Of a stretch of 64,000 bases of DNA, positions 4,836 to 61,728 are shown in pieces. Numbering within the stretch: position 1 is the first letter of the stretch; each line of letters starts with the position of its first letter. The stretch is taken from the NCBI RefSeq assembly GCF_001544975.2, contig NZ_FCOG02000011.1, positions 62,001-126,000 on the forward strand, read 5' to 3'. Source of the stretch: Caballeronia arationis. GTDB taxonomy: Bacteria; Pseudomonadota; Gammaproteobacteria; Burkholderiales; Burkholderiaceae. The notes under the pieces were generated by a model. That model was not told the DNA's origin. It made no database searches and saw nothing but the letters and a program-made list of their open reading frames with translations. The translations under genes were made by a program, and so were the position numbers.

Positions 4836-7800
4836 TTAAACCATCTTGCGCATCGATACCGGTGGAGTCGGCATCTTCTGGGGCGGTCCCGATTGAATCG
4901 GGCCTGTGCCTGGGGCGGTCGTCGATGGAGCGCTCGTCGCGCCTTGGTCGTTCGACTTTGACGTGGTTTGCATCAGGGCGAGAATTGCCTTCAGCGTGCC
5001 AAGGCTTTCCTCGTGAACCTTCAACGACTTCCCAAGCGTGTCACCCACGCCGCCCAAGGCATCCATGTGCTCGTCATGCTGAGCTTGCTGGACCGCCGCG
5101 ATGTTGCGACTTCCCGAGCCGACGGGTTTGGCAGACGAACCACCGAAACCGAACGGTGAGTCCGCCGGACTGCTCCCTGTCGAAGCCGCCGGAGCTGACG
5201 ACGTCGCCGAACCGGACGAAGCTGAAGCGGTGGAAGCCGTCGACGGTGCACTGCCTCCGGTCGATCCACTGGACGTGTCGGAAGCTGGAGCGGCGGGCGG
5301 AGTGCTTCCCGAACCGGATGCCGGAGCCGAACCGCCAGCGGCCGAGGTCTGTGCAGCCGAGGTACCGTCTGACTTAGCGTCCGTCTTTCCTGCAATGTCG
5401 GTCGGGACGAGCTTTCCGTCCTGAGCCTGCTTGAGGTAGAACTGATACTTCGACTGTCGATCGTTCAGGCCGTTGAGACCCCCGTTGACACCGAGCGTCG
5501 CCGTTCGCACGTCACCGTTCTTACCTGCCGCCTTCACGTTCTCTTGCCAGAATGCGATCGCTAGCTTTGCCGCCGTATTCGGTTCGGACGCGAGGTCCGG
5601 ATTGTTGATCAGGTCGACCCCGATCTTCTTTCCGAAGTGAGCGTAGTTGGCCTTGCCCGTCAGCTGGATAACGCCGCGACCGCGATACTTATAGCCATCG
5701 TCGGCATCGCTGTTGCCGAGACGACCGCCGTAGGCAGCATCAGCGATTGCTCGCTCGCCTCCGGCGACCGCCTCCTGTGCGGCCTGCATGGTCGGAAAAT
5801 GCTTCGGCCCGAACACCTTCATCAGGTTGCCCGCACTGTAGTGCAAGTTTTCCGTGAGCGACTTGAACCCGCCACTCTCATGGTCACACTGCGCCATAAG
5901 CATAGCCTGCTCTTCGGGCTTCGTGATGCCGGCCGCGACCATCGCTTTGAGAAGGGCATTCTTGATTGCCTGAGCGCTCGCTGAATACTTCTTCTCAACC
6001 CAGTTGCCCGCTGACTTCACGCCAGAGACAATGGCACCGCCGACCTTGGTGTTCTTGAAGGCGTCGTATGCCTTGCCCGCAGCGTTGCCGATCGAAGATG
6101 CAACGTTACTGACCACGTTCTTCGCCGAGTTGAACGCGTTGCTCGCCCAGTCCTTGACGCTCTTCCATCCCTCCCCTGCCTTATCGGCCAAGTAGTTGGT
6201 CCAGCCCTTGCCACCGTCACCCTCCTTCTTTTCGTCGGACTTCTTCGAGTCGGCTTTCGGCTTGTCTTTCGACACGCCGGTGCCATCGTTCAGCGTCTTG
6301 GCCTTGTCCTTGCTCTTGCCATCGAGGAAGTCGAGCGCTGCCTGCACGGACTTTTGATCCGTGTTCATCGCGTAGCCAGGCCACGGGGATTGCGTGACCT
6401 CCCGCACCGACTTGCTATCTGGCGTGCGCGTCCCGACGATCGCCTTAGCAATCTGGGCTGCGAGGACGGGTTCGAGCATGTCCTCCGAACGACCCGTGAG
6501 CTTGCCGACCATGGTGGGTCCGCCGCTCAGTCTCGACATCGTGCCGAGGTAGTTCAGGTAGGTGGGCAGGAAGCGCATGTTGAACCACGCGTTCCAGGTG
6601 TAGGCCTGGTTATTGTGGTGGCCCACAACACCAAACTGCGCGCCAAACTTTTCCTGAAGCTGTGCGGGATCGCCGTTGAACTGCGCGGCATCGTTGGTCA
6701 CGCGGACGGACTTGAAGGTCTCCGCTTCGAGCGCACGCAGGAGCGCACACTTGTCGGCATCGAGGTCCTTCAAACCGTACGTCCGGTAACGCACGCCCGT
6801 GAGCGTTTCTACCTTGCCCGGCGTTTGACCGGGCTTTGCGAGCGCCGGGTCGATTGCATAGGACGCAGTCGACTTGCCGCCAACGCCTGTTTCGGACGGT
6901 TTGGCAGTACCAATACCCAGGGCCTGAGCTACAAGCGCTTTCGCCTTGTCCTGCCCGGCCTCCTTCGGCTTCACGTCATCCGCCGTCTTTCCCGCCAGCG
7001 CACCAGCCGCAGCGGCACTCGCGACAACGCCCGCGGTTCCCTTGTCGCCGTCTTTCTTCCCCGCGTCCTTATCGATTTCGGCAGCAACTTCCTGCGTGAT
7101 CTTCTGGACATATTCCGGACCTGCTTGCAGGCTCGGCTGATCCCAGAACGGCGACGCGGAGACGTAGTACGGACCTTGCGGCCACTTTGACGCCTCGAAG
7201 TACTTCTTCTTCTCGTCGGACTTGAGCTTCTCGTCGACCTCCCCGAGCTTCGCGTTAGCATTCGCCGTCTGAAGTGCCGTCATGTGCTTCAAGAAGACCG
7301 GACAGAAACGACCCCTGAACCACTGTGCAAAATTCGCACACTGCTGGTTGTCCTTCAGGTCCAGATCGAAACCTTCGGCGAGCTCCTTCGGCTTCTGCAA
7401 CTCAGGCACCGCCTTCGCGTCGATGCTGGCTTGTCCATTCTGGAAAACGACGCCCTTTATCAGTTTGTCTTCAAGACCAAACACCGCCTGCAGATACGAC
7501 TTCTCCTGCTCCTTCGTGAAACCGTACTGCGCGAAACGCAGGGCAGAGAGCGACCCAAGCCTTTTCTTCGTCAGCGCCTTGTAGCCCTTGTAGAGGCTGT
7601 AGCCCAACAAAGCAGCACCGGCGATACCGAGACCGACCGGACTCAGCAGCGCAGCGCCCAGCATCCCGGCGCCGGTGGCAATTCCCGACAACACCGTTGC
7701 TCCGCCTGCGACCAGGGCGCTACCTCCCGTTGCGCCAGCGAGAAGACCCGCACCCTCAGCACCGGTCAAGGCTGCCGCACCCAGCCCGGCTTCGGCTGCT

Positions 7801-10800
7801 CCCAGACCCGTTGCCGCTGCTGCGCCTTCTGCGCCAACAGTTGCCGCGCCTTCCAACCCGGCAGACAACGCACCGCGGCCAAGGAGACGTCCCATTCCGC
7901 TTCTCAGGACGTTCTTCGCGCCTCCGAGCATCCTGCCTACACGACCGGCACCCGGAATGCGCTTGAGTAGCCGCTTCGCCTTATTGAACATCCCACCGCC
8001 GCCACCGATGCTGTCGCTCTCGGAATCCTGAATCGCGGCTTTCATCGCGGCGTACATACCCGCGATCCTTCCGTCTTTCGCCAGCTCGGGTGGCAACGAC
8101 GAACCACTCAGAAATTTGGCGACGCGATTCAGTCCCAGCGAACTCGCCATACCGCCGAGCATGTTGCCGGCGCGTGACAAGCCAGGCGCGATCTTGCTGA
8201 TGGCCTTGCGGATGAACCCCTTGCCCGCAGTCGCCTCACCGGCTTCCTCCGACTCTTCTTCGTCCTTCTTCTTGAAGCGATCCGTCAAGCCCTTGATCGC
8301 ATCCTTGATTTTGGACAAAGCAGCGCCCATCCCGGTTTCACCGGCCTTGCCGTCGCCCGCGGGAAGTTTCTTCTCGTGCTCCTTCTCTTCCCAGGAGCCC
8401 TTGACGAAGCCCTCTCCGTCATCGCCCAAGAGACGCTTCTTCGGGCGCGGTAAGCGCTCGGTGAGGATGTCGCGGATCTCGGTGAGACGGTCGATCATGG
8501 TCCGGGAGCCTGCAAAGATAATTCCGTCCTTGCCCAGCCAATTCTCGAACCAGTTACCCAGTGCCTTGAAGGGTGCAGAGACGAATGTCTTCGCCATCTC
8601 GAAGCCCTTCGACAGAGCACGGCCCGCCATCGCGAACGGCTTCCTCGCCAAGTCAAGGAGCTTCGCAAGCGGCGTCTTCATTGGCTTCCCGTTCCGGTCC
8701 ACAAGGCCTTTTGCCAGATCCTCTTTTGTCAAGACCAACTTGATGTTGTTCTTGTCGCTGATGTCTTCGACCGGGCCATCGATGAGACTGGGACGGGTGA
8801 TCAGCGTCCCCTTGAGTTGGGACCGATACGCGCCCCCGCGCATCATGATCGCAAGCATCACGGGGTCGTCCTTACCCTTGACGTAGATGTCGACGGGCTG
8901 GTCAAGAAGGTCCATGCCCTTCTCGGCCAACTTGATCCCGTGCTCAATCACCTTGGGGACGAGTCTGAATACACCTCCGGCGATACTGTCGTATGCGCCT
9001 CTCAATCCCTTCCATGCCGCGCCCAGCGCCGAGATTGCCTTGACGCCTATCTTGCTCTTGCTGTACGCGCGACCGATGTCCTTCGCCTCAAGAACGATGT
9101 TGTCGTTGTCGAAGATGTCTTCGACGTCGCTCGTGATGTCCTTGTAAGACTTGATGATGTTGCCGGTCGCCTTGTCGCGGTAGTGACCTGCGCGCATCTT
9201 CCATGCGAGGAGGGCCGGCTCTTTCGACCCGGGAAGGTAGATGTCGTCGAAGCTCTTGGCGTAGCTCAGCGCCTTCTTGCCGCCGCCTGAGACGGCGTCG
9301 AGACCCGACTTACCCCAGCCCTTCACCTTGTGGAACATCGGCGAAGGACGTTTCCACCAGTCCCAGGCGCCCTGAAAGCCACCCTTGACCTTGTCGAGGC
9401 CCCACTTCCCTGCGCCGGCGGCTGCACTGCCAAAGTCGCCGACGGTCCACGTCAGCAGATTCTTCGAGCGTCGAACGCCACCTCCATCGGCGTCACCCAT
9501 GTGAGTTCCAACGCCCGAGCGACGATGACGGACATCAATACCTTCCTCGACCTTCTTTTGAATCGCGAGTAGAGTTTCATGGATCTTCTCCGAGATTGAT
9601 TTGCTGCTGCTTTCCTTGATCGCCTCGATGATCGGTTTCTGGTCGCAACAGTCCTTGACCCCCGTTTCAGCCGACTTCCGACCACCGATGTTCAGGTGGT
9701 GCTCAGGCGTCGTTTCTGCCGGGTCGTCGGCTTCGTCGAGCGCGCGCAGCCACTCGTCAAAGCCGTCCGGCTCGTGACGACGCGCCGCGTTCCAGTTCAT
9801 CGCTCCCAGCGTCTGCGCAGACGGACGATGACGCGCAGTCGGTGTGAACGCACGGCGGGGTTTCTTGCGAGGTCCTTGACCCTTGACACGCTTGGCACCG
9901 CGGTGACGTGACGCCATTGACGCATGGATGCCGTGGCTACTACCACCGCCCATCGGACGAACGTTGCCGCCGGCGTAACTCGCTGCCGGATTGAACGTGT
10001 CATGCAGGTAGTAGTCCATCAGCTTGTCGAGATCCAGCCGGCCGTTCTTGACCAGACCGGTCTGCATGACCACGTCCAGCATGCCGCTGCTGATCATGTC
10101 CTGGATAGCGGCGCGAGGATCCCCCATGCCCGAACCAAGATCGGCGAACCGCGCTTGGAAGCGCATCTGTTTGCCGCCGTCGTGGTCGTCCTTGAAGTAG
10201 TTCTCGAAGAGCTTGGCGAACGTGCCCGCATGTTCCGCATTGTCACCGCCATAGCTGAAAACATCGCTATAGCGCTTCGCGGACCCTGTCCGGTTCGTCA
10301 GGTTGTCCTGCATCATCCGGCGCAGGAGTGCCTTACGCTGCTTCTTCGTGAGCTGAACCCCGCTTTCCTTCTCCAGGTGATCGACCAGGTTCTTGCCCTT
10401 CTCGTGCACCCAGGCTTTGTCTTCCTTTCGCACCAGTGAGCCGAACGCGTTCTTCGCCATCTCGCTCTTGCTATGGAACGAGTTCCGGGTGTAGTCGTAC
10501 GTGGTGAGTTCGGTCTTCGCGTCGCCCGTGCGCAGAATCTGCAGCTCACGGTAGATGCGTGCCAGATAGCCCGGAATGACTTCCGTCAGTGACTTGCGGG
10601 CGAGTCCGTTGAACGGCGCGGGATCCTGAAGGTTGCGCAGGTTGTCGACGTGCATCCCGGTTTCGACACCGTTTGACGCGCGGATCTGATCCTTCAACCA
10701 CCGGATGCCTCCACCTACGAGCGGTACGTTGTCTCCGTGATCCGAGTGCGCCCATTCGGTCAGGTGTTGCGGTGCGTTACCGGCGTAGTACTGAGCCTTG

Positions 10801-11963
10801 TTGCCGTACTTGTCAATCTTGTCGCCAAGGCGTGTCCCTTTGAGCTTCTTCCCGACCCAGCGCCCGGCCTTTGCACCAAGGGAGTCCGCCACCATACCAC
10901 CGGAGAATTCGCCAGCCATTTGTGACTTGCTGGGACCACCTTCACCCAGCATGTCGCTTGCGTCGGCGGCCATGTCAGCAGCGCCCAGGGCCATCTGCGC
11001 ACTACCCGCGAAGCTCGACAGACTGGCGGTCAGTTGCTTCTGAATCCGGTCTGTCAAGTTGCGCATGAACGCCGAGCGCTGACCGAGGACCATCCCGCCC
11101 ACATTGCCGAAGAACTTGTTCCTCGCGAGGGTCGGCCAGTCTTCGCGCATCTTGATCTTGAGCACGTCTGGAAGCGCAGTGTTCTTCTGGATGTTCTCCA
11201 GCAATTCGCGATTCCGTGCTCCCTGTGCCTTCTGCTCCGCCAACGAATCCATGGCGACGAAGTAGTGGCGGTACTGGATCTCGAGCGACTTGCGCTGGAA
11301 GTTGACCGTCACTCGATCCTGGTAGTCCGCCAGACGCTGCAACGCGATGCGCATCGAGTTGAGCTGCCCCAGCTGGTTATTGGAGCGATTATTGTCGATG
11401 TTCTTCTGGATGTCGGATTCGGCCTTGTCTTCTGCGCGCTGTTGCGCGTTCGTCTCAGCCTGGAACTTGAAAATGTCGCCGAGTGTGGACTGAAGCGCCG
11501 CGTGGCGCGACGCCTCTTCCGAGATACCCGTCGAGCCATTGTCGGCCGACTCCGACCAGGATTTGAGGCGCTGCTGGACCTTTTTCGGCAGAAATTTTTC
11601 AGTCGTCGGGAGCAACTTATTGGTCGCGCGCTTCATGTCGTTGAGAAGCGGACGGACCTCTTTGACGGACGAATTGTATAGAGTCCGCAGGGACGCATTG
11701 GTCTGATCTGCCATGTCGAGGGCTGTTCCATAGCCCGTCGGCAAGGCCGATTTGACGGTCTTCTTGATGAACGAGCTGCTCCGGGCCGAGTCCCAGACGC
11801 CGCTCACCGCACCCTTCCCGAAATCCATTGCCGCTTGGGTCGCGGGCTTCCGGTCGTCCTTCTTCTTAGCCTTCGGTGCTGAAGCGTTCCAATCCGACGC
11901 GAAGTCGAGATCTTCGTCGAAGCCAAAGTCGTCGACTGCGGAGAGCTTCCTTTTCTTGGCCAT
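4836..11963 (-). CDS. Giant virion-associated lysin with GH19 chitinase-like domain
   Basis: 2375 residues from ATG 11963 (MAKKRKLSAVDDFG), which has TTGGAGTC upstream; a longer frame starts 11 codons earlier without a ribosome site. The first 350 residues are charged and helical. The middle contains several Gly/Ala-rich hydrophobic stretches (about residues 1370-1470) and a repeated DFV/W-type tail-protein texture. Residues about 2000-2180 form a family 19 glycoside hydrolase domain: CDHESGGF near residue 2028 gives the likely catalytic Glu, followed by GRLGN, YRGRGVIQLTG and the closing VNGGLNGLNDR. Residues about 2190-2290 are a Ser/Ala/Gly/Pro linker before a short helical C-terminus. By size, domain and neighbours this is the phiKZ gp181-like peptidoglycan-cutting virion protein used during genome injection. 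Confidence 0.85.
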   Translation of the reverse strand: MAKKRKLSAVDDFGFDEDLDFASDWNASAPKAKKKDDRKPATQAAMDFGKGAVSGVWDSARSSSFIKKTVKSALPTGYGTALDMADQTNASLRTLYNSSVKEVRPLLNDMKRATNKLLPTTEKFLPKKVQQRLKSWSESADNGSTGISEEASRHAALQSTLGDIFKFQAETNAQQRAEDKAESDIQKNIDNNRSNNQLGQLNSMRIALQRLADYQDRVTVNFQRKSLEIQYRHYFVAMDSLAEQKAQGARNRELLENIQKNTALPDVLKIKMREDWPTLARNKFFGNVGGMVLGQRSAFMRNLTDRIQKQLTASLSSFAGSAQMALGAADMAADASDMLGEGGPSKSQMAGEFSGGMVADSLGAKAGRWVGKKLKGTRLGDKIDKYGNKAQYYAGNAPQHLTEWAHSDHGDNVPLVGGGIRWLKDQIRASNGVETGMHVDNLRNLQDPAPFNGLARKSLTEVIPGYLARIYRELQILRTGDAKTELTTYDYTRNSFHSKSEMAKNAFGSLVRKEDKAWVHEKGKNLVDHLEKESGVQLTKKQRKALLRRMMQDNLTNRTGSAKRYSDVFSYGGDNAEHAGTFAKLFENYFKDDHDGGKQMRFQARFADLGSGMGDPRAAIQDMISSGMLDVVMQTGLVKNGRLDLDKLMDYYLHDTFNPAASYAGGNVRPMGGGSSHGIHASMASRHRGAKRVKGQGPRKKPRRAFTPTARHRPSAQTLGAMNWNAARRHEPDGFDEWLRALDEADDPAETTPEHHLNIGGRKSAETGVKDCCDQKPIIEAIKESSSKSISEKIHETLLAIQKKVEEGIDVRHRRSGVGTHMGDADGGGVRRSKNLLTWTVGDFGSAAAGAGKWGLDKVKGGFQGAWDWWKRPSPMFHKVKGWGKSGLDAVSGGGKKALSYAKSFDDIYLPGSKEPALLAWKMRAGHYRDKATGNIIKSYKDITSDVEDIFDNDNIVLEAKDIGRAYSKSKIGVKAISALGAAWKGLRGAYDSIAGGVFRLVPKVIEHGIKLAEKGMDLLDQPVDIYVKGKDDPVMLAIMMRGGAYRSQLKGTLITRPSLIDGPVEDISDKNNIKLVLTKEDLAKGLVDRNGKPMKTPLAKLLDLARKPFAMAGRALSKGFEMAKTFVSAPFKALGNWFENWLGKDGIIFAGSRTMIDRLTEIRDILTERLPRPKKRLLGDDGEGFVKGSWEEKEHEKKLPAGDGKAGETGMGAALSKIKDAIKGLTDRFKKKDEEESEEAGEATAGKGFIRKAISKIAPGLSRAGNMLGGMASSLGLNRVAKFLSGSSLPPELAKDGRIAGMYAAMKAAIQDSESDSIGGGGGMFNKAKRLLKRIPGAGRVGRMLGGAKNVLRSGMGRLLGRGALSAGLEGAATVGAEGAAAATGLGAAEAGLGAAALTGAEGAGLLAGATGGSALVAGGATVLSGIATGAGMLGAALLSPVGLGIAGAALLGYSLYKGYKALTKKRLGSLSALRFAQYGFTKEQEKSYLQAVFGLEDKLIKGVVFQNGQASIDAKAVPELQKPKELAEGFDLDLKDNQQCANFAQWFRGRFCPVFLKHMTALQTANANAKLGEVDEKLKSDEKKKYFEASKWPQGPYYVSASPFWDQPSLQAGPEYVQKITQEVAAEIDKDAGKKDGDKGTAGVVASAAAAGALAGKTADDVKPKEAGQDKAKALVAQALGIGTAKPSETGVGGKSTASYAIDPALAKPGQTPGKVETLTGVRYRTYGLKDLDADKCALLRALEAETFKSVRVTNDAAQFNGDPAQLQEKFGAQFGVVGHHNNQAYTWNAWFNMRFLPTYLNYLGTMSRLSGGPTMVGKLTGRSEDMLEPVLAAQIAKAIVGTRTPDSKSVREVTQSPWPGYAMNTDQKSVQAALDFLDGKSKDKAKTLNDGTGVSKDKPKADSKKSDEKKEGDGGKGWTNYLADKAGEGWKSVKDWASNAFNSAKNVVSNVASSIGNAAGKAYDAFKNTKVGGAIVSGVKSAGNWVEKKYSASAQAIKNALLKAMVAAGITKPEEQAMLMAQCDHESGGFKSLTENLHYSAGNLMKVFGPKHFPTMQAAQEAVAGGERAIADAAYGGRLGNSDADDGYKYRGRGVIQLTGKANYAHFGKKIGVDLINNPDLASEPNTAAKLAIAFWQENVKAAGKNGDVRTATLGVNGGLNGLNDRQSKYQFYLKQAQDGKLVPTDIAGKTDAKSDGTSAAQTSAAGGSAPASGSGSTPPAAPASDTSSGSTGGSAPSTASTASASSGSATSSAPAASTGSSPADSPFGFGGSSAKPVGSGSRNIAAVQQAQHDEHMDALGGVGDTLGKSLKVHEESLGTLKAILALMQTTSKSNDQGATSAPSTTAPGTGPIQSGPPQKMPTPPVSMRKMV

Positions 11964-12039
11964 ACGCGACTCCAAAAAAATAGGGCCGCGGAACATCGCG
12001 ACCCCTCATAGATTTCCCGTTTTTAAGTAGGAACACTAA

Positions 12040-13665
12040 ATGCCACAGCGTTCTGCGATTCCTTTCAATCTGAGCTTGCTCGAACTCACGCCAGCCAAGT
12101 TGCAAGGGCTGAAGCCCGTGACCTCACTCGCCTTCTTCGACGGCAATAGCAACAACTTTGCGGAAGACGGCCTGTTCTCCGTGAGCATCTTCGGCAAAGT
12201 CGGCGACGAGAAGCGTTCGCAACGCTTTTCTTTCATCGACATTCGCGTGCCGATCTTTCATCCAGTGATCTTCCGCGCGCTCGTCAGCCTGAAGCGCTTG
12301 TACGGCGACATCATCTCGGGTGCCGAATACGCCGTGTGGAATCCGGAGATCCGCGACTTTGAACGCAGCGATCCAGTCAACGGCAAGACGGGCTTTCAGT
12401 TCTTCGTGTCCAACTGGAAGAACATCGCCTTCGAGAAAACGAAGAGTGACACGCGCGAGCAGAACATCCTGCTCATCGAGAAGTTCAAGGAAAAGGGACT
12501 GACGTCGAGGATCGTAGTGATGCCCGCTGGCATGCGCGATCTGGAGATTGGTCCAGATGGTCGGGTGCGTGAGGACGAGATCAACACGATCTACCGGGAG
12601 CTGATCGCCAAATCGAATAGCGTAACCGACTCGGCGCTGCGCACGAACCCCGAGATCATCAATACGGTTCGCTACAGCCTGCAGATGACCTTCAACAAGC
12701 TCTATGACTTGCTCGAGAGCATGGTAGAAGGCAAGCGCAAGCTTCTGATGGGCAAGTGGGCGAGCCGGCGTGTCTTTGACGGTACGCGAAACGTGATCAC
12801 GGCGATGGACACCTCGGCGGCGTATCTCGGCGCGCCCGGCAACGTCGGTTTCAACAACACCGTGATCGGCCTGTATCAGATGCTGAAGGCCGCTCGACCG
12901 GTGGCTGTCTATCACATCCGCAATGGCTTTCTCCAAAAGGTCTTTCCGGGTGCTGGGATGGCTGCGAAGCTCGTCAACAAGAAAACTCTACAGGCGGAGC
13001 CGACGCAGTTGAAGGTGGACTACTTCGACCGCTGGATGACGAGTGAAGGGATCGAGAAAATTCTGACGGCGTTCGGTGAAGAGGATCTGCGCCACAAACC
13101 CATCGAGATCGACGGCAAGTATCTGGGCCTCATCTACCGGGGCCCGGACATGACGTTTCGCTTCATGAACAGCATCGACGAGCTACCCGAGGGTCGCGAC
13201 AAGAAAGACGTCTCGCCGATCACGTTTTGTCAGCTGCTCTACCTCTCGACCTATCGTGAGATGGACCGCCTGCCCCTTTTTGTCACGCGTTACCCGATTA
13301 CGGGTATCGGCTCGATCGTGCCAAGCAAGGCGCACGTTCGCACGACGGTGCTTTCCGAACGACGCAAGGAACTGGGTCCGGACTGGAATCCGCTGGGCGA
13401 CGACTACGTGGCCTACGAGTTTCCTGTCGACGGTGGCGCATTCATCAACTCACTGGTGCCGCACAGCTCCAAGCTGGGCCTGATGGGCGCTGACTTCGAC
13501 GGCGATACGTCCTCGGGCAACGTCACCTACACCGACGAAAGCATTCAAGAAGTTGATGAGTTTCTCGCCAGTCGTCGCGCCTATGTGGGCACCGACGGCC
13601 GAGCGCTTGCAAGCGTAGCAGTCTCCACAGTGAACCTGGTGCTGCACAACCTGACCGGGGATTAA
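12040..13665 (+). CDS. RNA polymerase beta-prime N-terminal-type subunit (probable virion RNAP, gp180-like)
   Basis: 541 residues, ATG 12040 with TAGGAACAC upstream. The LLMGKW-VFDGTRNVI segment near residue 235 corresponds to the GKRVDYSGRSVI region of beta-prime. LPLFVTRYPITG near residue 415 replaces the NRAPTLHR segment. GADFDGD at about residues 483-489 is the metal-binding catalytic loop (NADFDGD in bacteria, with Asn replaced by Gly here). The protein ends soon after, so it is only the N-terminal part of a beta-prime; the rest must be encoded outside the window. It lies five bases before the beta gene and is divergent from the virion lysin, the same arrangement as phiKZ gp178-gp180-gp181. 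I therefore favour the virion polymerase, which starts early transcription after injection. Confidence 0.8.
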   Translation: MPQRSAIPFNLSLLELTPAKLQGLKPVTSLAFFDGNSNNFAEDGLFSVSIFGKVGDEKRSQRFSFIDIRVPIFHPVIFRALVSLKRLYGDIISGAEYAVWNPEIRDFERSDPVNGKTGFQFFVSNWKNIAFEKTKSDTREQNILLIEKFKEKGLTSRIVVMPAGMRDLEIGPDGRVREDEINTIYRELIAKSNSVTDSALRTNPEIINTVRYSLQMTFNKLYDLLESMVEGKRKLLMGKWASRRVFDGTRNVITAMDTSAAYLGAPGNVGFNNTVIGLYQMLKAARPVAVYHIRNGFLQKVFPGAGMAAKLVNKKTLQAEPTQLKVDYFDRWMTSEGIEKILTAFGEEDLRHKPIEIDGKYLGLIYRGPDMTFRFMNSIDELPEGRDKKDVSPITFCQLLYLSTYREMDRLPLFVTRYPITGIGSIVPSKAHVRTTVLSERRKELGPDWNPLGDDYVAYEFPVDGGAFINSLVPHSSKLGLMGADFDGDTSSGNVTYTDESIQEVDEFLASRRAYVGTDGRALASVAVSTVNLVLHNLTGD

Positions 13666-13670
13666 ACAAG

Positions 13671-15461
13671 ATGTTCCTGTACGAATACTTCTATCGACGA
13701 TACGGCGTGCGCCGCACCGCACAGCTGATTCAACCGCCCCTTCCGGGCATGGATCAACTGGCGCTGCCCAAGCGCAGCCTGTTCCACTTCATGGGCGGCG
13801 GTCCGCTCGACAGCGGTCCCGACTCAAACCAGATCGAGTTTCGTGGCATCACGAAGCCGATCGTCGTCTCGCACGTCTTTCAGCAAAGCGCGAATCAGGG
13901 CAACCCGCGCCTCGTCCGGACTTCGACCCCATTGCTCTCTTCGCAGTGGTTCCAGAAGCATCGGCGGTACAAGAAGATCGTGAACTTCGAGACGGGCACG
14001 CGGGACGACAACACGCTGGCCGTGATGAACTATGCGTTCCTGTGGCGGATGTACCGCTACCCGCGATCGTTGTTCGCCAACTTCTATCAGTGGCACAACA
14101 TCGCGGAGACGCTCTGGAGCCAGGTGGGCGACATTGCTTCGCGCTCCAATCGGCATCAGTTCATTCCGATCACCTTGCCCAAGATCCTGCCGTGTCTGGC
14201 TGATCTGAAGGTCGGCGAGATGAGCGGCATCAACCAGCGACTCATCAAACGTTTCAATTCGCACGAAGCGCTGATGATCCTTGAGATCTGGAAGTGGCTC
14301 GGCGAGAACCGCAAGTCGTCGATGCTCTCTCACGTGAACGATGCGAACATCGGTCGTGTCAACCTTCTGTTCGAGGAAAGCGGCCGTTGGTTCGTGGTGA
14401 ACCTCGCCACGCTCAACGGCTGGCGGATTGCTACGCCGTCTGAGCTGGAGGCCAATCCGGACGCGAATCAGCACGGGTACCCGCCTGCTCGCATGCAGCG
14501 TTTCTTCCTGCGTATGCTCATGTCCCTGATGGAAGTCCGCACTGCCGCAGCACCTGAAGTCATGGCTGAGAGCGATAGCGCGGTGCCGGCCACGGGCGAA
14601 ACCCCCCAGGAACCGACCAACGTCGTGGATTCGGTCAATCCGACCACGGGCGAGATCACCAAGACGGTTCAGCAGCCGAGCGAGGTACCAACCTACTTCC
14701 AGGTGCCGAAGCAGCTGGATGCGGATCTCGATGATGAAGACGGTGACCGAACCAAAACCATGCGCGTGGTCGCAGCGCTCAAGCATGAAGACGATGCACC
14801 GGATGAGCGCGGCACTGACATCCATCGCGATATGGAGTTGGAGAAGCAGATCGACGCGGATCTGGACCAGCTCGAGCACATCGCGAATCTGAGCGATCCG
14901 GAGGAAGAGACACGCACGGAAGCGGTGATCGAAGCGCCGGTCACACTCAGTCCCGAAGGCGCCGTGATGAAGATCTGTGATCGGCTCGCCGAGCAGGGAA
15001 TGCTGAGTGCCGGCGAACACCGTCGCTATCAAGCGCTCTCGCAGGCGTACAAGAAGATCGTTGCACCGGACGGCAAGTCGACGCTGGGTGACTTTTCGCA
15101 GGTTGCGAAAGAAGACGTACACATTCCGGAATCGCCAGCCCTACCCGATGTCGCAACGGTGCCGGACAAGACGATGCTCAAATCGTCGCTCATGGTGTTC
15201 GACTCACATTACATCAAGAAGGTCATGCAGAAGGATGTCGCCAGCATGGTGCTCAACCTTCAGCAGGCCGGCCTCTGCGTCACCGGCTACGAGGTCGAAG
15301 ACGTCGATGATGTCATGGGCGAATACAAGATCTACACCGTGCGCGTGACACCGGTCGATGGGACACAATCGACGTTCCGATTCCGGCTGCCAACAGTAGC
15401 TGAAGACGGTACGTTCACCAGCAACGGTGTGAAGTATCGCGTGCGAAAGCAGCGAGGGGAT
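13671..15461 (+). CDS. RNA polymerase beta subunit, exon 1 (probable virion RNAP, gp178-like)
   Basis: Exon 1 codes for 597 residues, from ATG 13671, five bases after the stop of the beta-prime gene. The unspliced frame would stop at TAA 15462-15464, immediately after the exon. Residues about 330-420 are a low-complexity acidic region, unlike cellular beta. The end, NGVKYRVRKQRGD, resembles the conserved F-x-x-NG-x-E/K-x-x-x-x-Q segment of beta. It continues in register with exon 2 at 15850 (LPIRKIGPDIV) when the intron 15462-15849 is removed. The complete product would be 1451 residues. Assignment to the virion rather than the non-virion enzyme is by gene order. Confidence 0.75.
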
Positions 15462-15849
15462 TAAAACATGTATGGTCCCCGTGTCGTAGAAATACGGCAC
15501 AAGAAAACCTATCTAATTGCGGGAACCCGCCTAGACCCAACAACTACCACCTACGCGCGGAAACGCAGCGTAGCACCTGTAGGGTAATCATCCAAACAGG
15601 AATGGTGAAAATGTTGTTGGGTGGCGCAACCGACGCAGCGAAGCTCCTAAGTACCCACGGTATATGGAGTGTGCTCAGAGGCCATCGAAAGCTACGACGC
15701 AAGGCGTCTAACGACACCTGTATAAAGCCAGGTGGTCACCTCTCGGTGATTCAAGCGAGTAGAGTAGGACGTCGCAAGACATCCGAAAAGATAGGCACCC
15801 TACCCTCGAATCGAGGCGGGTGAAGATATGGTCCACCTTGGATGGGGTG
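15462..15849 (+). ncRNA. Group I self-splicing intron in the RNAP beta gene
   Basis: 388 nt between two in-phase halves of one beta reading frame. The 5' exon ends GGGGAU (15456-15461) and pairs with GUCCCC (15475-15480) just inside the intron, giving a P1 helix with the required U-G wobble at the splice site (U15461-G15475). CCAACAAC (15538-15545) can pair with GTTGTTGG (15613-15620). GAAGATATGGTCC near 15822-15834 is the usual 3'-proximal P7-region signature of phage group I introns. Placing the terminal G at 15849 joins GAT to CTT and gives RKQRGD-LPIRKI without a frame change. There is no open reading frame of note inside, so no homing endonuclease within the intron. The exact 3' splice site is inferred from the protein frame. 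Confidence 0.88.
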
Positions 15850-18414
15850 CTTCCCATCCGAAAGATCGGTCCGGACATCGTGGCGCTCACGAGCTACTAC
15901 GGCAAAGTGTTTGTCTCTCGGTCGCCGAAGCGCGTGAACGACTACGGGACCTGGTTGTGTAACTCGATCCGCGCGATCGGGCTCGAGAAAGGCAGCAGCT
16001 TGCTCGGGAACATGCACATGGCGGATGTGTTCGACAATTTCTTCCCGTGTCCTCGGCTCTACAGCATCTTGGCGATGTCGTTCCGTGGATTCACGCTGGC
16101 GGGGTTCGAGTGGAACTTCGATCACAGCAAGCGTGCGGCGTTGTATGGCGAGGAGATGCTGAAGGTCTACGAGCGTGACGGGATTGTCATTTGTGGCAAG
16201 TCGATGAAGGATCCGAAGTCCTTCCTTCTGATGGACGCGAAAGGTGCGCTCTACCATGCCACGTTTGGTCAGCGTCATCTGCCGCTCGTGCTGCCGAGCA
16301 TCGAAGAGATGTTGCAGCTTGAGCCTGCCAAGGCGCCTGTCGACTTCGCCGAAGTGAAAGTGTTGGGACGCACGATCCCGCTGGGTGTGGTGCTCGGTTA
16401 CGAAATGGGTCTCGAGCGTCTGATGAAGCTGCTCAAGGTCGAACCTCGCCGCGTACCGGCAGGGCAGCGCGTCAATCTGCAGCCGAACGAATACAGCCTG
16501 GTCTTTTCGGACGAGACACTCGCGTTCCCGCGTGACAGGACGTTCGCCTCGATGGTGCTCGCGGGCTTCAACGAGTATCACCGCAGCCTGCGGACATACA
16601 ACGTTCACGAGTTCGACCGGCGCGGCGTGTACCTGAACCTGTTGGAGTCGGCTGGCGCATCGACGCGCTATCTGCGCGAGATCGATCTTCAGTATCAGCT
16701 TTTCGTTGACCCGATCACGCGCGAGCTGCTCGTCGACATGAAGGAGCCCACGGACTATCAGAGCCTGCTACTCAAGGCCTGCGAGATGCTGCTCACTGAC
16801 CATCACCCGGACGAACTCGATTCGCGCTACATGCGGATCAAGGGCTACGAGCGGATGGCGGGTGCTGTCTACTCGGAAATCGTGCGTTCCATTCGTGTGC
16901 ACAACGGTCGTGCGGGCAAATCGCGTTTGCCGATTGACCTGCACCCGTTCCAGGTCTGGAAGAACATCACCCAGGATCCGGCAAAGATCCAGGTGTCGGA
17001 AATCAATCCGATCCAGAACCTGAAAGAAATGGAAGCGGTGACGTACTCGGGTGTTGGTGGTCGAGGTTCGCGCAGCATGACGAAGTCGACCCGTGCCTAC
17101 CATCAGAACGACATGGGCACGATCTCGGAATCGACCGTCGACTCTTCGGACGTCGCAATCAACACCTACACCAGCGCGGATCCGCAGTTCACCTCGCTGC
17201 GTGGCGTCTCGCGTCCCTATGACGTGAAGAAGTCGGGCGCAACGGCTCTGCTTTCGACGTCGGCGCTGTTGTCACCGGCGGCTGATCGCGACGATCCGAA
17301 ACGGGTGAACTTCATCGGCATCCAGCAGAGTCACGGCATCGCCTGTCGCGGCTACAAGCAGGCAGCGCTTCGCACGGGTTACGAGGGCGTTATTGCTCAT
17401 CGTGCAGGTGACTTGTTTGCAGTGACTGCGAAGAAGAGCGGCAAGGTGCTATCCGTCAATGAGCACGGCATGCAGGTGCAGTACGAAGACGGTGAGATTC
17501 AAGGCATCGAGCTCGGACGCCGTTACGGCAACGCCGCCGGTCTCGTGGTTCCGCACCAGGTCAACACGAACATGAAGGCCGGGCAGACGTTCAAGCCAGG
17601 CACTCTCCTCTCCTACAACGACGGCTTCTTCGAGCCGGACGTGCTGAATCCTGACAGTGTTGTCTGGAAAGCCGGGATCACGGTGAAGACTGTGTTCATG
17701 GAGGCGATGGTGACGCTCGAGGACTCCTCGGCGATCTCGAGAGAGGTCTCGGAACTGCTGACCACGCAGTTGACCAAGGTGCGGACCGTCGTCGTCAACT
17801 TCGACCAAGAGATCCACAAGCTCGTAAAACCGGGCAGCGTTCTGGGCTCCGAGGATATTTTATGCGTCATCGAGGACGCCGTGACAGCGGGCAACCGTCT
17901 GTTCGACGAGGAGTCTCTTGACACGCTGCGTGTGCTCAGCGAACAAACGCCCAAGGCGAAATCCGCGGGTGTCGTTGAGCGTATTGAGGTCTTCTACCAC
18001 GGGGAGCTGGAGGACATGTCGCCTTCACTCCAGAAGCTCGCGGCCACATCCGATGCGGCCATGATCAAGCGTTCGCGCTCCGTGGGTAAGAAAGGCTACA
18101 CCGGCAGCGTCGACGAAAGCTTCCGCGTCGAAGGCACACCGCTTCAGTTGGACACCGCAGCGATTCAAATCTACCTCACTGCGGACGTGCCGGCTGGCGT
18201 GGGTGACAAGGGCGTGTTCGGCAACCAGTTGAAAACGGTGTTTGGTCAGGTGATGGAGCGTGAGCTGAGAACGGAGTCCGGACTGAAGGTCGATGCGATC
18301 TTTGGCGCGAAATCCGTTGCAGACCGGATCGTGTCGTCCCCGGAACTCATCGCTACTACCACGACCTTGCTCGATGTGATCGGCCAGAAGGCCGTAGAAC
18401 TCTACCGGTCGTAG
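15850..18414 (+). CDS. RNA polymerase beta subunit, exon 2
   Basis: 854 residues plus stop. The frame stays open back to a GTG at 15820, but bases 15820-15849 belong to the intron. Exon 2 starts LPIRKIGPDIVALTSYYGK, typical of phiKZ-like beta. SGVGGRGSRSM, then SDVAINTYTSADPQF and the IQQSHGIACRGYKQA segment lie in the middle. VGDKGVFGNQ near residue 1382 of the spliced protein is the counterpart of the beta GDKxxGRHGNKG motif that lines the catalytic centre, with the basic residues reduced. The protein ends with a short C-terminal region after ELYRS. A hairpin follows the stop. The beta and beta-prime genes form one operon. Confidence 0.8.
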   Translation, partial: LPIRKIGPDIVALTSYYGKVFVSRSPKRVNDYGTWLCNSIRAIGLEKGSSLLGNMHMADVFDNFFPCPRLYSILAMSFRGFTLAGFEWNFDHSKRAALYGEEMLKVYERDGIVICGKSMKDPKSFLLMDAKGALYHATFGQRHLPLVLPSIEEMLQLEPAKAPVDFAEVKVLGRTIPLGVVLGYEMGLERLMKLLKVEPRRVPAGQRVNLQPNEYSLVFSDETLAFPRDRTFASMVLAGFNEYHRSLRTYNVHEFDRRGVYLNLLESAGASTRYLREIDLQYQLFVDPITRELLVDMKEPTDYQSLLLKACEMLLTDHHPDELDSRYMRIKGYERMAGAVYSEIVRSIRVHNGRAGKSRLPIDLHPFQVWKNITQDPAKIQVSEINPIQNLKEMEAVTYSGVGGRGSRSMTKSTRAYHQNDMGTISESTVDSSDVAINTYTSADPQFTSLRGVSRPYDVKKSGATALLSTSALLSPAADRDDPKRVNFIGIQQSHGIACRGYKQAALRTGYEGVIAHRAGDLFAVTAKKSGKVLSVNEHGMQVQYEDGEIQGIELGRRYGNAAGLVVPHQVNTNMKAGQTFKPGTLLSYNDGFFEPDVLNPDSVVWKAGITVKTVFMEAMVTLEDSSAISREVSELLTTQLTKVRTVVVNFDQEIHKLVKPGSVLGSEDILCVIEDAVTAGNRLFDEESLDTLRVLSEQTPKAKSAGVVERIEVFYHGELEDMSPSLQKLAATSDAAMIKRSRSVGKKGYTGSVDESFRVEGTPLQLDTAAIQIYLTADVPAGVGDKGVFGNQLKTVFGQVMERELRTESGLKVDAIFGAKSVADRIVSSPELIATTTTLLDVIGQKAVELYRS

Positions 18415-57811: not shown

Positions 57812-59779
57812 ATGGCAGTCAACCACACTGGCAACAAGCAAGGCGCAGCAGCAGAAACCTCGATGGCCGCAGCATTCAGCCGCCAGCAAGACCAACCTGC
57901 GCAACAGCCGCAGCAGCAAGCCGCTGCGAGCGCCGCACAGCGGCCGATTCAGCGCACCCGTCTGTCGGATATCGGCAGCCTCTCGCGCGCGGCAATGGGC
58001 CGCAACCCGCAGAGCGAAGTCATCACGAAGCTCAGCAAGGCGCTCGAAGTAGCGTTCGCTGGCATCGACAAGAGCTACGAAGTCACGCTCATCCCGATCG
58101 ACTACAACAACACGAAGTCGCTGGTCAAGTCGGTCATCGTCGTCGCCATGCGCGATCTGGTGAACAAGGAAACGGGCGTGGCGTGCCACACCCTCATCCT
58201 GGAAGGCTCGAGCGAGCCGCTGCAGGTCGGCTACCAGATGATCAACAACCAGAACGTCGAAATTCTGCGTGTGAGTGGCGACTACAACAACAAGACGCTG
58301 TCGGACGAAGTCCTGAGCGCCGTGGCGCGCACGTTCGCCGGCATGCCGATCTGGCCGGTGGATGCATGCGTGGTGCCGCGCGACTTCAACGTCGAAGACC
58401 CGACGCTGGTTCACGAGCTGGCAGCGAATGCTGCGACGGCTTGCCAGACCGAACTCGAAGTTCGTCAGCCGGGCGGCTTCCAAGACGTGGACCTCGGCAC
58501 CGTCGAGCATGAGAACTCGCTGACCGTTCAGCCGACGTTCGGCAACGGTCAGTCGCGTGACATGGTCGGCGCGCCGGTTCGCTCCGACATCGTCATCGAC
58601 TTCCGCGCAGGCGGCCAGGAAATCCCGGGTCAGCAAGGCGAGACGCAACGCGTGAAGCAAATCTCGCGCATCAGCGGCTACATGGACCTCTTGTGGGCGC
58701 CGACCGAGCAGCAGACGCAACGTTTCGATCCGTGGGTTCAGCAAACGGCTCAGGCGTCGTCGCCCGACGAGTTCAAGCGTTACCGCCCGCGTTTCGTGAT
58801 GACCGATCTCGAGTCGGTGCAGCTACTCACGATCCCGGCGCAACTCCTGGCGCTCGTGACGGCATTCACGCTGGCTGAGAACAACGCATGGGTCGAAGCA
58901 TTCCGTCCGGCTCCGATGAACAACAGCGCGGAAGTGGACTGGAAGGACATCGGTGCGATCGGCATCGAAGCCAACTTCGAGAAGAACCAGAATGGCTTCG
59001 GTTCGCGCGTGGACACGAAGTCGGACGCGTTCCAGCGTGTTCAAGGTCAGGCAGGCGATCACCTCCTGCGTCTGGTCGGTTCGGTCATCACGCCGAAGCT
59101 GCTCCTCTCGCTGGACGTGCCCGAGTGCGGTCCGCAGACCTGGTTCAACGGCATCTTCGCAGCAGCCGCTGAGCTGAACGGCAACAACTGGCAGAAGGCG
59201 AATGAAATCATCATCCGTGCAGCGAACGTGCTCACGCATGGCAACTTCAGCCGCTACTTCCAGGCCGGCGCGCGTGTGGCGTCCGACGAATTCAACCGCA
59301 TCCACCTGGGTTGGTACGTCGACCGTCATGGCGTGAAGCGCGATCTGCGCGATGTCGATTACCTGGCCGTGCTCAACATGGTCGGCGATCGCGATCCGGA
59401 AGTCGCACGCGAATGGTCGGACTCGTTCGCTCGCACCAACCTGGATCTGCAAGTCCGTCTGGCGAAGCGCAAGCAGATCATCGAAGGCGTCCTCGGCAAG
59501 AACAATGTCGAGTTCACCGGCTTCGCACGCCGCGTGACCTTCGAACCGGCGTTCATCGTCGCGCTGCTCAACGCGTGCAAGGACACGGGCCTCTCGGTTC
59601 GCACCATTGCACCGATGACCGATCTGAACCAGTACGAGCGCGCGGTCAACCCGTACGCGATGTCGGCTGGTCTGGACACGTCTTCGCTGAACGGTTCGGT
59701 GTTCAACCGCGGCTTTGGGCATCAGCAGCAACAGCAGCATGGCGCCCGCGCTGGCTTCAGCCGCTGGTCCCAGCAGTAA
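57812..59779 (+). CDS. chmA: Probable chimallin, phage nucleus shell protein (ChmA/PhuN)
   Basis: 655 residues, ATG 57812 with a strong AAAAGGAAAC site. Residues 1-50 are disordered and rich in Gln and Ala (DQPAQQPQQQAAASAAQ). The folded body has ITKLSKALEVAFAGIDKSYEVTL, then RSDIVIDFRAGGQE and ISRISGYMDLLWAP, and PAQLLALVTAFTLAENNAW, a pattern I associate with the chimallin family (about 600-650 residues). The C-terminal tail is flexible (HQQQQQHGARAGFSRWSQQ) as expected for a segment that links subunits. Codon use is extremely biased, in keeping with very high expression, and the gene has its own long upstream region and terminator. The shell protects phage DNA from host nucleases and CRISPR. 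The alternative, another abundant structural protein, cannot be excluded. Confidence 0.68.
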   Translation: MAVNHTGNKQGAAAETSMAAAFSRQQDQPAQQPQQQAAASAAQRPIQRTRLSDIGSLSRAAMGRNPQSEVITKLSKALEVAFAGIDKSYEVTLIPIDYNNTKSLVKSVIVVAMRDLVNKETGVACHTLILEGSSEPLQVGYQMINNQNVEILRVSGDYNNKTLSDEVLSAVARTFAGMPIWPVDACVVPRDFNVEDPTLVHELAANAATACQTELEVRQPGGFQDVDLGTVEHENSLTVQPTFGNGQSRDMVGAPVRSDIVIDFRAGGQEIPGQQGETQRVKQISRISGYMDLLWAPTEQQTQRFDPWVQQTAQASSPDEFKRYRPRFVMTDLESVQLLTIPAQLLALVTAFTLAENNAWVEAFRPAPMNNSAEVDWKDIGAIGIEANFEKNQNGFGSRVDTKSDAFQRVQGQAGDHLLRLVGSVITPKLLLSLDVPECGPQTWFNGIFAAAAELNGNNWQKANEIIIRAANVLTHGNFSRYFQAGARVASDEFNRIHLGWYVDRHGVKRDLRDVDYLAVLNMVGDRDPEVAREWSDSFARTNLDLQVRLAKRKQIIEGVLGKNNVEFTGFARRVTFEPAFIVALLNACKDTGLSVRTIAPMTDLNQYERAVNPYAMSAGLDTSSLNGSVFNRGFGHQQQQQHGARAGFSRWSQQ

Positions 59780-60201: not shown

Positions 60202-61728
60202 GTGGGCGTATTCCTCCAACTCGTGAACCAAGACGAAGTGTTCAATCACTTCTCGTCGAAGGAACCGATCATCATCAACGACCTCTCGGACACGTCCGAA
60301 GAGGAAAAAGAACACATCTACAACCTGATCTTCACGAAGTACGATCTGATCAACTCGGATCTGCTCTCGAACATCCCCGCATGCGACTGCGGCAACACGG
60401 TCGGCGTCGACAAGCTCGGCGACGGGAAGTACATCAAGGCTGTCGTGTGTCCGGACTGCCACACCGAGGTGACAGCACCGCATCAGCGCGATCTCGAGCC
60501 CTTGATCTGGCTGCGTGCACCGAACGGCGTTACCGCGCTGATCAATCCGACGGTCTGGACGATGATCGCAGAGCGCTTCGAGAAGAGCAACTTCGACGTG
60601 ATGCGCTGGATCGTGGACGTGAATTACAAGCCGGCTGTGAAGGAGCCGCCTGTGATGGAGTACATCCGCAAGTCAAACATCCCGCGCGGCTACAACCATT
60701 TCGTCGAGAACTTTGATCAGATCATGGACTTCATGTTCAATCTGAAGTTCTACAGCAAGAAAAAGCTCGCCCCGCTTAAGCAGCTGCTGCAGGAACAGCG
60801 CGATTGCGTCTTCTCGAAATACATGCCGCTGCCGAACCGTTCGCTGCTCGTGCTCGAAGACACGAACCACGGCTCTTACACGGACGCGACCGCACCTGTT
60901 GCTGTGGATGCGATCCTGATGATGGTCGGCATTGACGCGCCGCTCTCTGTCCACTCCGAGCGAGTGAAGGAGAACCGCACGATCAAGATGATCATCCAGA
61001 CGGCGCAGTATTACGACGAGACGATGCGCACGGTGTTGGCGAAGAAGGAAGGCATCTTCCGTAAGCACGTGTACGGCACGCGAGCCCACTTCAGCTTCCG
61101 CGCAGTGATCAGCTCGCTCACGGATCGCCACGACTACGACGAAGTCCACATTCCGTGGGGAATCGGGATCGCGGTGTTCGAACTGCATCTGAAGAACCGC
61201 ATGATGCGCCAAGGCATGACGCCGTCCGAAGCGGATGCGTACCTGTTGGACCATGCAGCGAAGTACTGCCCGATGCTGGACCAGATGTTCCGCGACTTCA
61301 TCGAGCGTTCGCCGTACAAGGGCGTACCGATCGTGCTGCAACGCAATCCGTCGCTGGCGCGTTCGTCGGCACAGGCCATGTTCATCACGAAGGTGAAGAA
61401 CGAGCCCGCGATCCCGACGATCTCGATGAGCATTCTGTCGGTGGTCGGCTTCAACGCGGACTTTGACGGCGACCAGCTCAACGCGACGCTGTCGCTCGAC
61501 TTCGTGACGGCCGAGGAGCTGTATCGACTGGCACCGCATCAGAGCGTGTTCGACATGAACGCGCCGCGTACGGTGTCGCGCAATCTGTCGATGCCGAAGA
61601 CCGTGATCGCGACGATCAGCAACTGGATCCACTGGGACGAACCGGAGCAAGCCGACCCGGAAGTCTTGCGTCGTATGGCAGCCATTCCCGAAGCCGCTCC
61701 GGTGGAACCGGTTTCGGCCGTTCATTAA
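60202..61728 (+). CDS. RNA polymerase beta-prime N-terminal-type subunit, second copy
   Basis: 508 residues from GTG 60202, right after AAGGAGAACACG. A zinc site near the N-terminus has CDCGN (residues 61-65) and CPDCH (83-87). GIFRKHVYGTRAHFSFRAVI near residue 283 matches the GLFRKNLLGKRVDYSGRSVI region of beta-prime. IVLQRNPSLARSSAQAMF near residue 375 is the NRAPTLHR counterpart. NADFDGDQLN with Asp420 opens the metal-binding triad in standard NADFDGD form, unlike the gene at 12040. The gene ends soon after, so it is again only an N-terminal moiety. As the window contains another copy next to virion RNAP beta, this one may belong to the non-virion enzyme; gene order alone does not settle it. 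Confidence 0.8.
   Translation: MGVFLQLVNQDEVFNHFSSKEPIIINDLSDTSEEEKEHIYNLIFTKYDLINSDLLSNIPACDCGNTVGVDKLGDGKYIKAVVCPDCHTEVTAPHQRDLEPLIWLRAPNGVTALINPTVWTMIAERFEKSNFDVMRWIVDVNYKPAVKEPPVMEYIRKSNIPRGYNHFVENFDQIMDFMFNLKFYSKKKLAPLKQLLQEQRDCVFSKYMPLPNRSLLVLEDTNHGSYTDATAPVAVDAILMMVGIDAPLSVHSERVKENRTIKMIIQTAQYYDETMRTVLAKKEGIFRKHVYGTRAHFSFRAVISSLTDRHDYDEVHIPWGIGIAVFELHLKNRMMRQGMTPSEADAYLLDHAAKYCPMLDQMFRDFIERSPYKGVPIVLQRNPSLARSSAQAMFITKVKNEPAIPTISMSILSVVGFNADFDGDQLNATLSLDFVTAEELYRLAPHQSVFDMNAPRTVSRNLSMPKTVIATISNWIHWDEPEQADPEVLRRMAAIPEAAPVEPVSAVH

Follow-up and report, generated by a model that had tools for sequence, protein, structure and literature searches.

A predicted group I intron in the virion RNA polymerase β gene of a giant phage, and a candidate downstream-exon hairpin at its 3′ splice site

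Introduction

Introns in the genes of giant phages are already known. The closest described system is the intron of the nucleus-forming phage PhiPA3 (gp211/gp209), which, according to the available text of its report, interrupts the same gene at another site, that of the virion RNA polymerase β subunit, and carries the HNH endonuclease gp210; one site of the virion-polymerase gene is already known to be fought over by an intron endonuclease (PMC11620839). The same source, as far as available, gives the homologous phiKZ protein gp178 as the β subunit packaged in virions (Birkholz et al., 2024, PMC11620839). Choice of the 3′ splice site in group I introns is attributed, in the accessible parts of two papers, to P10 (the guide region pairing with the downstream exon), to P9.0 and in one intron to P9.2 (PMC3984707, PMC6155759). 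In-frame stop codons are common in such introns and are read, in the accessible part of the former, as keeping ribosomes out (PMC3984707).

The virion polymerase transcribes the early genes of giant phages. Phage group IA introns with P7.1/P7.2, of the T4 td and Twort type, share with the intron described here the order of the core helices, a U·G pair at the 5′ splice site and a terminal G. To our knowledge, no 3′-exon hairpin of the kind reported below is known in them.

The present intron occupies a second site in the gene. According to the available part of its report, the PhiPA3 intron adjoins gp178 residue D1072 and carries an endonuclease gene (PMC11620839); the site studied here lies 478 residues upstream, and the present intron has no such gene. 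The PhiPA3 site itself (DD|PKRVNF) is intact at 17296 in the window, the whole 64-kb stretch of DNA that was analysed. A literature search, which covered few subscription journals and for the most part partial texts, identified no paper on an intron at the window's site. The intron in the window is presented as a further group I intron of a lineage that would be set apart, if the role proposed below is confirmed, by a 3′ hairpin that tracks its exon.

The interrupted gene and its junctions

The β gene is divided between a stretch at 13671-15464 and exon 2, which starts at 15850, within a run of giant-phage polymerase genes; the upstream neighbour is a β′-like piece (12040-13665, phrog_2986, motif GADFDGD). 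The features of the locus are as follows.

13671..15461, + strand: exon 1 of the virion RNA polymerase β gene, 597 codons (phrog_3148 positions 1-574 of 1424)
15462..15849, + strand: group I intron, 388 nt, without endonuclease gene (RF00028, 54.4 bits; ORF list)
15849..15849, + strand: terminal guanosine (omega-G) at the 3′ splice site, the sole placing that matches continuous homologues
15850..18414, + strand: exon 2 of the virion RNA polymerase β gene, 854 codons and stop (phrog_3148 positions 575-1421)

The original prediction had placed a group I intron in a polymerase β gene at this position and proposed the Rfam group I models as a check. That check found RF00028 at 15452-15861 (54.4 bits against a gathering cut-off of 50, E 4.7e-11), the sole match in the 64-kb window above any Rfam gathering score, and the whole 9.4-Mb assembly gave no second RF00028 match at E ≤ 0.001. 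In addition, the two exons abut exactly in one profile, phrog_3148 (574|575), which supports the same placement. No endonuclease ORF was seen in the 388-nt intron in the ORF list. The three polymerase pieces had no Pfam match at E ≤ 0.001, and exon 2 had no sequence match to solved structures at E ≤ 0.01.

Both junctions agree with those first predicted. Exon 1 ends in CGA GGG GAT and is followed directly by an in-frame TAA (15462-15464); exon 2 continues in phase from 15850 to give RKQRGD|LPIRKI, a reading supported by nine unbroken viral relatives. The terminal G is present in 18/18 related introns with a readable 3′ junction. What did not hold was the reading of GAAGATATGG (15822-15831) as the 3′-end signature, since this segment enters the 3′ strand of P7 (15829-15833) and the last intron base is G15849. 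Alternative 3′ ends at the in-phase G15846 or G15840 would leave one or three extra residues that are absent from the relatives. The 3′ end implied by Rfam, beyond 15860, is out of frame and contradicted by the nine continuous homologues; the Rfam model extends 12 nt past the intron because it pairs bases of the intron with bases of exon 2. The element is very probably a splicing group I intron with junctions 15461/15850, and self-splicing is predicted.

The 5′ guide and the first intron codon

15456..15461, + strand: P1 exon strand GGGGAU, with U15461 as the splice-site U (6/6 pairs)
15475..15480, + strand: internal guide sequence GUCCCC, the P1 intron strand, closing a P1 loop at 15462-15474 (pairing and loop measurement)

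The six pairs between these strands, with U·G at the splice site, are those that had been foreseen. With the guide taken as the best placing within 60 nt upstream of the core, the pairing is 6/6 in each of the 18 introns whose 5′ junction could be read, with U·G at the splice site and zero mismatches. Six exon hexamers (GGGGAU, GGUGAU, GUGGAU, GGAGAU, GCGGAU and AGUGAU) are matched by seven guides (GUCCCC, GUCACC, GUCCAC, GUCUCC, GUCCGC, once GUUCGC, and GUCACU). Exon 1 ends in GAT in 18/18 intron carriers, compared with nine GAT and nine GAC in 18 intronless loci (Fisher p 0.001, kinship not removed). The first intron codon is an in-frame stop in 14 of the 18 introns, a sign that ribosomes still interfere with ribozyme folding or that the stop is a legacy of such a conflict.

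Catalytic core

Core helices were examined in an alignment of 16 introns running from just before the guide into exon 2, with 59 pairs read from the window.

15481..15500, + strand: P2 hairpin with GAAA loop (8/8 pairs change on both sides, 94.2% paired; gaps in 3/16 introns)
15508..15513, + strand: P3 5′ strand, partner 15790-15795 (100% paired; 3/6 pairs change on both sides)
15518..15523, + strand: P4 5′ strand, partners 15630-15631 and 15634-15637 (100% paired, nearly invariant)
15528..15531, + strand: P5 5′ strand, partner 15623-15626 (81.3% of cells paired)
15535-15544 with 15613-15622, + strand: outer extension of P5 (89.7% of cells paired)
15638..15674, + strand: P6 domain (lower helices 100% paired, tip 54-71%)
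15680..15684, + strand: P7 5′ strand, guanosine-binding helix, partner 15829-15833 (100% paired, one pair changes on both sides)
15790..15795, + strand: P3 3′ strand (16-intron alignment)
15796..15822, + strand: P8 hairpin (basal helix 98.8% paired, 5/5 pairs change on both sides; tip 60-71%)
15829..15833, + strand: P7 3′ strand (16-intron alignment)
15835..15848, + strand: P9.0/P9, A15835-U15848 with a weak helix above, excluding part of the 3′ splice-site hairpin (A-U in 14/16)

Across the alignment 91.8% of 890 cells are paired, against 35.6-41.4% when the partners are slid, although a structure derived from the window by itself favours the unslid version on this percentage. Pairs changed on both sides number 41, against 19-21 in the slid versions and 25.3 in the shuffled one. 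P6a and the tip of P8 (54-71%) and P5 (81%) fit less well, indicating that these parts differ between members. The P7-P3 interval, in which subgroup IA introns have the extra helices P7.1/P7.2, spans 105 nt here and holds inverted repeats such as 15715-15720/15729-15734.

An intron lineage fixed to one site

A core-motif search of IMG/VR gave 26 stretches, of which 15, the window's own included, lie at the same polymerase site and 11 have no polymerase match at E ≤ 1e-4. A search with the 3′-end motif gave 60 stretches, 13 known and 47 new; three of the new ones lie at the same site, and the other 44 have no polymerase match. Together with the Vibrio phages vB_pir03 and vB_VmeM-Yong XC31, 20 distinct introns were found at the site. 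The 5′ junction could be read in 18 and the 3′ junction in 18, with both in 16; exon 2 is missing in L024 and L039, and exon 1 in L029 and L030. For many carriers the term giant phage is inferred from the gene, because their contigs are of unknown full length.

The introns of vB_pir03 and Yong XC31 share with the window the identical site and phase, the start GAT|TAAAA, the guide register and a related core, but differ from it in carrying an endonuclease gene in the P1 loop. No intron is annotated in the examined stretches of these two records. The nearest intron by sequence (L026, IMG/VR 3300042696_000147; 75% over 368 columns) has the same site and the same 3′ hairpin, and is 1950 nt long with an endonuclease gene in P1, whereas that of the window is 388 nt long without one.

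The site is mostly unoccupied among relatives. IMG/VR gave 10 matching loci, one of which (L004) is identical to the window and represents its own contig. The other nine, among which L009 and L012 are near-copies of each other, read through the junction with no extra residue. In eight of them the sequence there is RGD or KGD|LPIRK, and the ninth has RVD|VPIRK. Two loci in Paraburkholderia assemblies, one of them (L017) with the same junction sequence as L010, and one further viral contig likewise have no interruption. A 200-residue query across the junction matched 274 records of the phage collection, and 262 of these cover at least 80% of it in one place, where one place may join pieces some hundreds of bases apart. 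Among the 60 matches listed, 58 cover at least 90% in a single piece, and Yong MS32 and vB_pir03 cover half; three more Yong records carry the Yong intron (BLAST), which accounts for five of the 12 records without such coverage. The closest relative (L008, 93-94% identity in exon 2) is intronless. The host-genome relatives showed the intron in one of 61 genomes searched, namely its own, and a plasmid search returned a single short, weak match.

In a tree of 35 exon-2 proteins, from which L021, L024 and L039 were left out, the intron needs at least nine gains or losses, eight of them forced by well-supported branches. The window is the sole intron carrier in a strongly supported clade of eight. 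This pattern indicates that the intron comes and goes, and that the window lineage recently gained it or its sisters lost it. The intron belongs to a lineage fixed to one conserved site of the virion-polymerase β gene.

Other interruptions of polymerase genes were seen alongside. Polymerase genes in L010:5447-6828, L012, L018 and L071 are interrupted at the PhiPA3 site (DD|PKRVNF), and the ORFs there in L010 and L012 match HNH endonuclease models. The β gene in L020:358-4086 has four group I matches. Two lie in tandem at the PhiPA3 site and a third near exon-2 residue 785; the fourth, at the window's site, scores 47.2 bits and so stays under the cut-off of 50. In Yong XC31 (L014:2475-3860) a group I intron (69.9 bits) with a further ORF splits a β′-like gene within its catalytic motif, GAD|FDGD. 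By its motifs, this ORF looks like an HNH endonuclease.

A hairpin across the 3′ splice site

15838..15847, + strand: intron arm of the hairpin, core GGATGGG at 15840-15846 (10 pairs in the window; exact 7-nt inverted repeat)
15852..15861, + strand: exon arm of the hairpin, core CCCATCC at 15853-15859 (pairing with the intron arm)

At least six contiguous pairs span the 3′ splice site in 17 of 18 introns, and vB_pir03 forms two; in Yong XC31 the hairpin lies in another register. The pairs vary in identity. With the intron base given first, exon base +6 is paired as G-C in 11 cases, U-A in five (one of them from the two-pair helix of vB_pir03) and A-U in two, and exon base +9 as G-C in six, A-U in seven, U-A in two and G·U in one. 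When exons were dealt at random among the introns, a post hoc comparison, as the alignment of the introns had first drawn attention to the hairpin, and one in which shared ancestry remains in the shuffles, the mean duplex energy was -7.0 kcal/mol (sd 0.55), against -10.0 kcal/mol with the own exon, and none of 20,000 deals was as low. A plain helix score agrees (16.3 with the own exon, 11.8 with dealt ones, sd 0.78; 0/20,000). The own exon is the best of the 18 for three introns, stands in the best four for 17, and ranks 16th for vB_pir03.

Introns at the PhiPA3 site served as controls. In five loci, a small set of which four are distinct, they form 2-4 pairs only and lack the hairpin; the pattern used to find them missed L015, L018, L020, L071 and PhiPA3 (L045), so that PhiPA3's own 3′ end lies outside this set.

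P10, by comparison, is short. It comprises one pair in the window and in 10/16 introns overall and 2-5 pairs in the other six, and as the main 3′ guide it was set aside for most members on the strength of that single pair in 10/16. The member with the longest P10 (five pairs, one-base spacer) is vB_pir03, the same one that, unlike the window, has no 3′ hairpin. P10 and hairpin strength show a modest inverse relation over the 16 introns (Spearman -0.56, p 0.024), which is not significant without vB_pir03 (-0.45, p 0.093).

P9, which competes with the hairpin for the same intron arm, is also conserved. Folded alone in the window, the hairpin reaches -14.6 kcal/mol and P9 -3.0 kcal/mol. As the hairpin is so much the stronger, it is proposed to form in the precursor RNA, with P9 taking its place once the intron has been excised.

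From this anatomy, splicing would run as follows. Exogenous GTP bound in P7 would cut after U15461, held in P1 by GUCCCC. G15849 would then dock in P7, U15461 would attack after G15849, and the exons would be joined as RGD|LPIRK. The intron would grip its exons from both sides by base pairing, which on the downstream side is unusual: the guide tracks the final six nucleotides of exon 1, and the stretch just before the terminal G tracks exon 2 at about +4 to +10. The hairpin loop may present U15848 (P9.0), G15849 and C15850 (P10), and the hairpin may do most of what P10 does in other introns. Once the exons are joined, the released intron arm could refold into P9, which would disfavour the reverse reaction.

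We tentatively propose that this lineage selects its 3′ splice site mainly by the downstream-exon hairpin and not by P10. The introns would then have a second guide, which tracks the downstream exon; they would recognise their target from both sides and thereby remain tied to a single gene position across distant phages, and release of the exon arm would let P9 form and drive splicing forward. Against such a role, a hairpin as stable as -14.6 kcal/mol at the 3′ splice site could slow splicing instead. If the proposal is true, the hairpin is a different answer to the choice of the 3′ splice site in group I introns. The literature search found no 3′-exon hairpin; the available texts of PMC3984707, PMC6155759 and PMC4227781 mention P10, P9.0 and P9.2 only, and few subscription journals were covered, so that no priority is claimed.

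A somewhat unlikely but serious alternative holds that the 3′ pairing is a by-product of a G-rich P9 next to an exon that encodes Pro-Ile-Arg, reflecting composition and descent without function. Conserved exon codons do make swapped pairs complementary as well (the mean of -7.0 kcal/mol), only 3/18 introns fit their own exon better than any other, and one intron manages without the hairpin. Nevertheless, own exons outfit the swapped ones on two scores, exon base +6 varies as C, A or U together with its intron partner G, U or A (11, 5 and 2 cases), and introns at the other site do not reach beyond four pairs in the five loci.

The P1-loop endonuclease and mobility

Where both junctions were read, 10 of the 16 introns have P1 loops of 942-1550 nt that match a single endonuclease family (the match in L025 spanning 201 residues only), and these endonucleases are 37.7-43.1% identical to that of vB_pir03, itself the tenth carrier. 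The family corresponds to phrog_559, named HNH endonuclease, although by its motifs the P1-loop ORF may be of the 'EDxHD' type. The vB_pir03 endonuclease had no sequence match to solved structures at E ≤ 0.1. The six introns without endonuclease have P1 loops of 13 (window), 15, 65, 75, 181 and 207 nt, which makes the window intron the most reduced of these copies by P1 loop length. The virion-polymerase gene is thus occupied at a second position, which has an endonuclease family of its own. Introns at this position occur in Vibrio phages of two kinds, in contigs from metagenomes and in the window phage, and six copies are reduced to the bare ribozyme.

The intron probably reached the window lineage by homing through a related endonuclease, either one that it once encoded and later lost from the P1 loop, or that of a co-infecting phage. 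Arrival by reverse splicing at the RNA level, without endonuclease-driven homing, is improbable. It would suit a copy without endonuclease that stands alone among seven intronless relatives and is complementary to both flanking exons, which is a requirement of that route. However, one endonuclease family sits in the P1 loop of 10/16 introns, including the nearest kin L026, the six endonuclease-free loops are graded in length from 207 to 13 nt, as deletion would give, and the pathway is described in the accessible part of a 2014 review as lacking direct experimental evidence (PMC3984707).

A co-conversion tract was sought by comparing the window with intronless L008. Codon differences are denser at the site, but within chance (5.4-7.9% of windows are as dense).

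It is highly improbable that the intron no longer splices and leaves two polypeptides, a 597-residue N-terminal piece closed by the TAA and a C-terminal restart at GTG 15820 or GTG 15847: the exon 2 frame is indeed open from GTG 15820 (864 aa), with GAGG 3 nt upstream, nearer than usual for a ribosome site, and split polymerase genes are normal in giant phages according to the available text of PMC7598289, but a dead intron would lose its guide and core, whereas the window keeps 6/6 guide pairs and all 59 scored core pairs, though these are defined on the window itself, and P3, P4 and P7 are 100% paired across the 16 introns.

The polymerase and the phage

Exon 2 matches 294 phage records, including phiKZ gp178 at 42.5% identity, and the intron site corresponds to gp178 residues 594|595. 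The suggestion that the gene might encode the virion polymerase is borne out by this homology. The window also encodes a homologue (60205-61455, 34% identity) of phiKZ gp55, which is annotated as RNA polymerase β subunit and belongs to the non-virion RNA polymerase. The claim that the unspliced phage would make no functional polymerase therefore goes too far; since the genome encodes this gp55 homologue too, only the virion enzyme should fail without splicing.

A homologue of the phiKZ nuclear shell protein is found at 58340-59638 (28% identity, E 5e-29), and the window phage is, on this evidence, probably nucleus-forming. If the carriers all form a nucleus, for which the shell homologue was checked in the window phage alone, these introns bear on whether the separation of transcription from translation relaxes the conflict between ribosome and ribozyme.

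The relatives of the window phage come from Burkholderia and Paraburkholderia. The giant-phage contig (C275) lies inside a 9.4-Mb bacterial assembly, related phage contigs occur in two Paraburkholderia assemblies, and persistence in culture and contamination are two possible origins. An ORF at 4836-11996 (- strand, 2386 residues) also lies within the window, and by its motifs one end of it looks like a chitinase or lysozyme domain.
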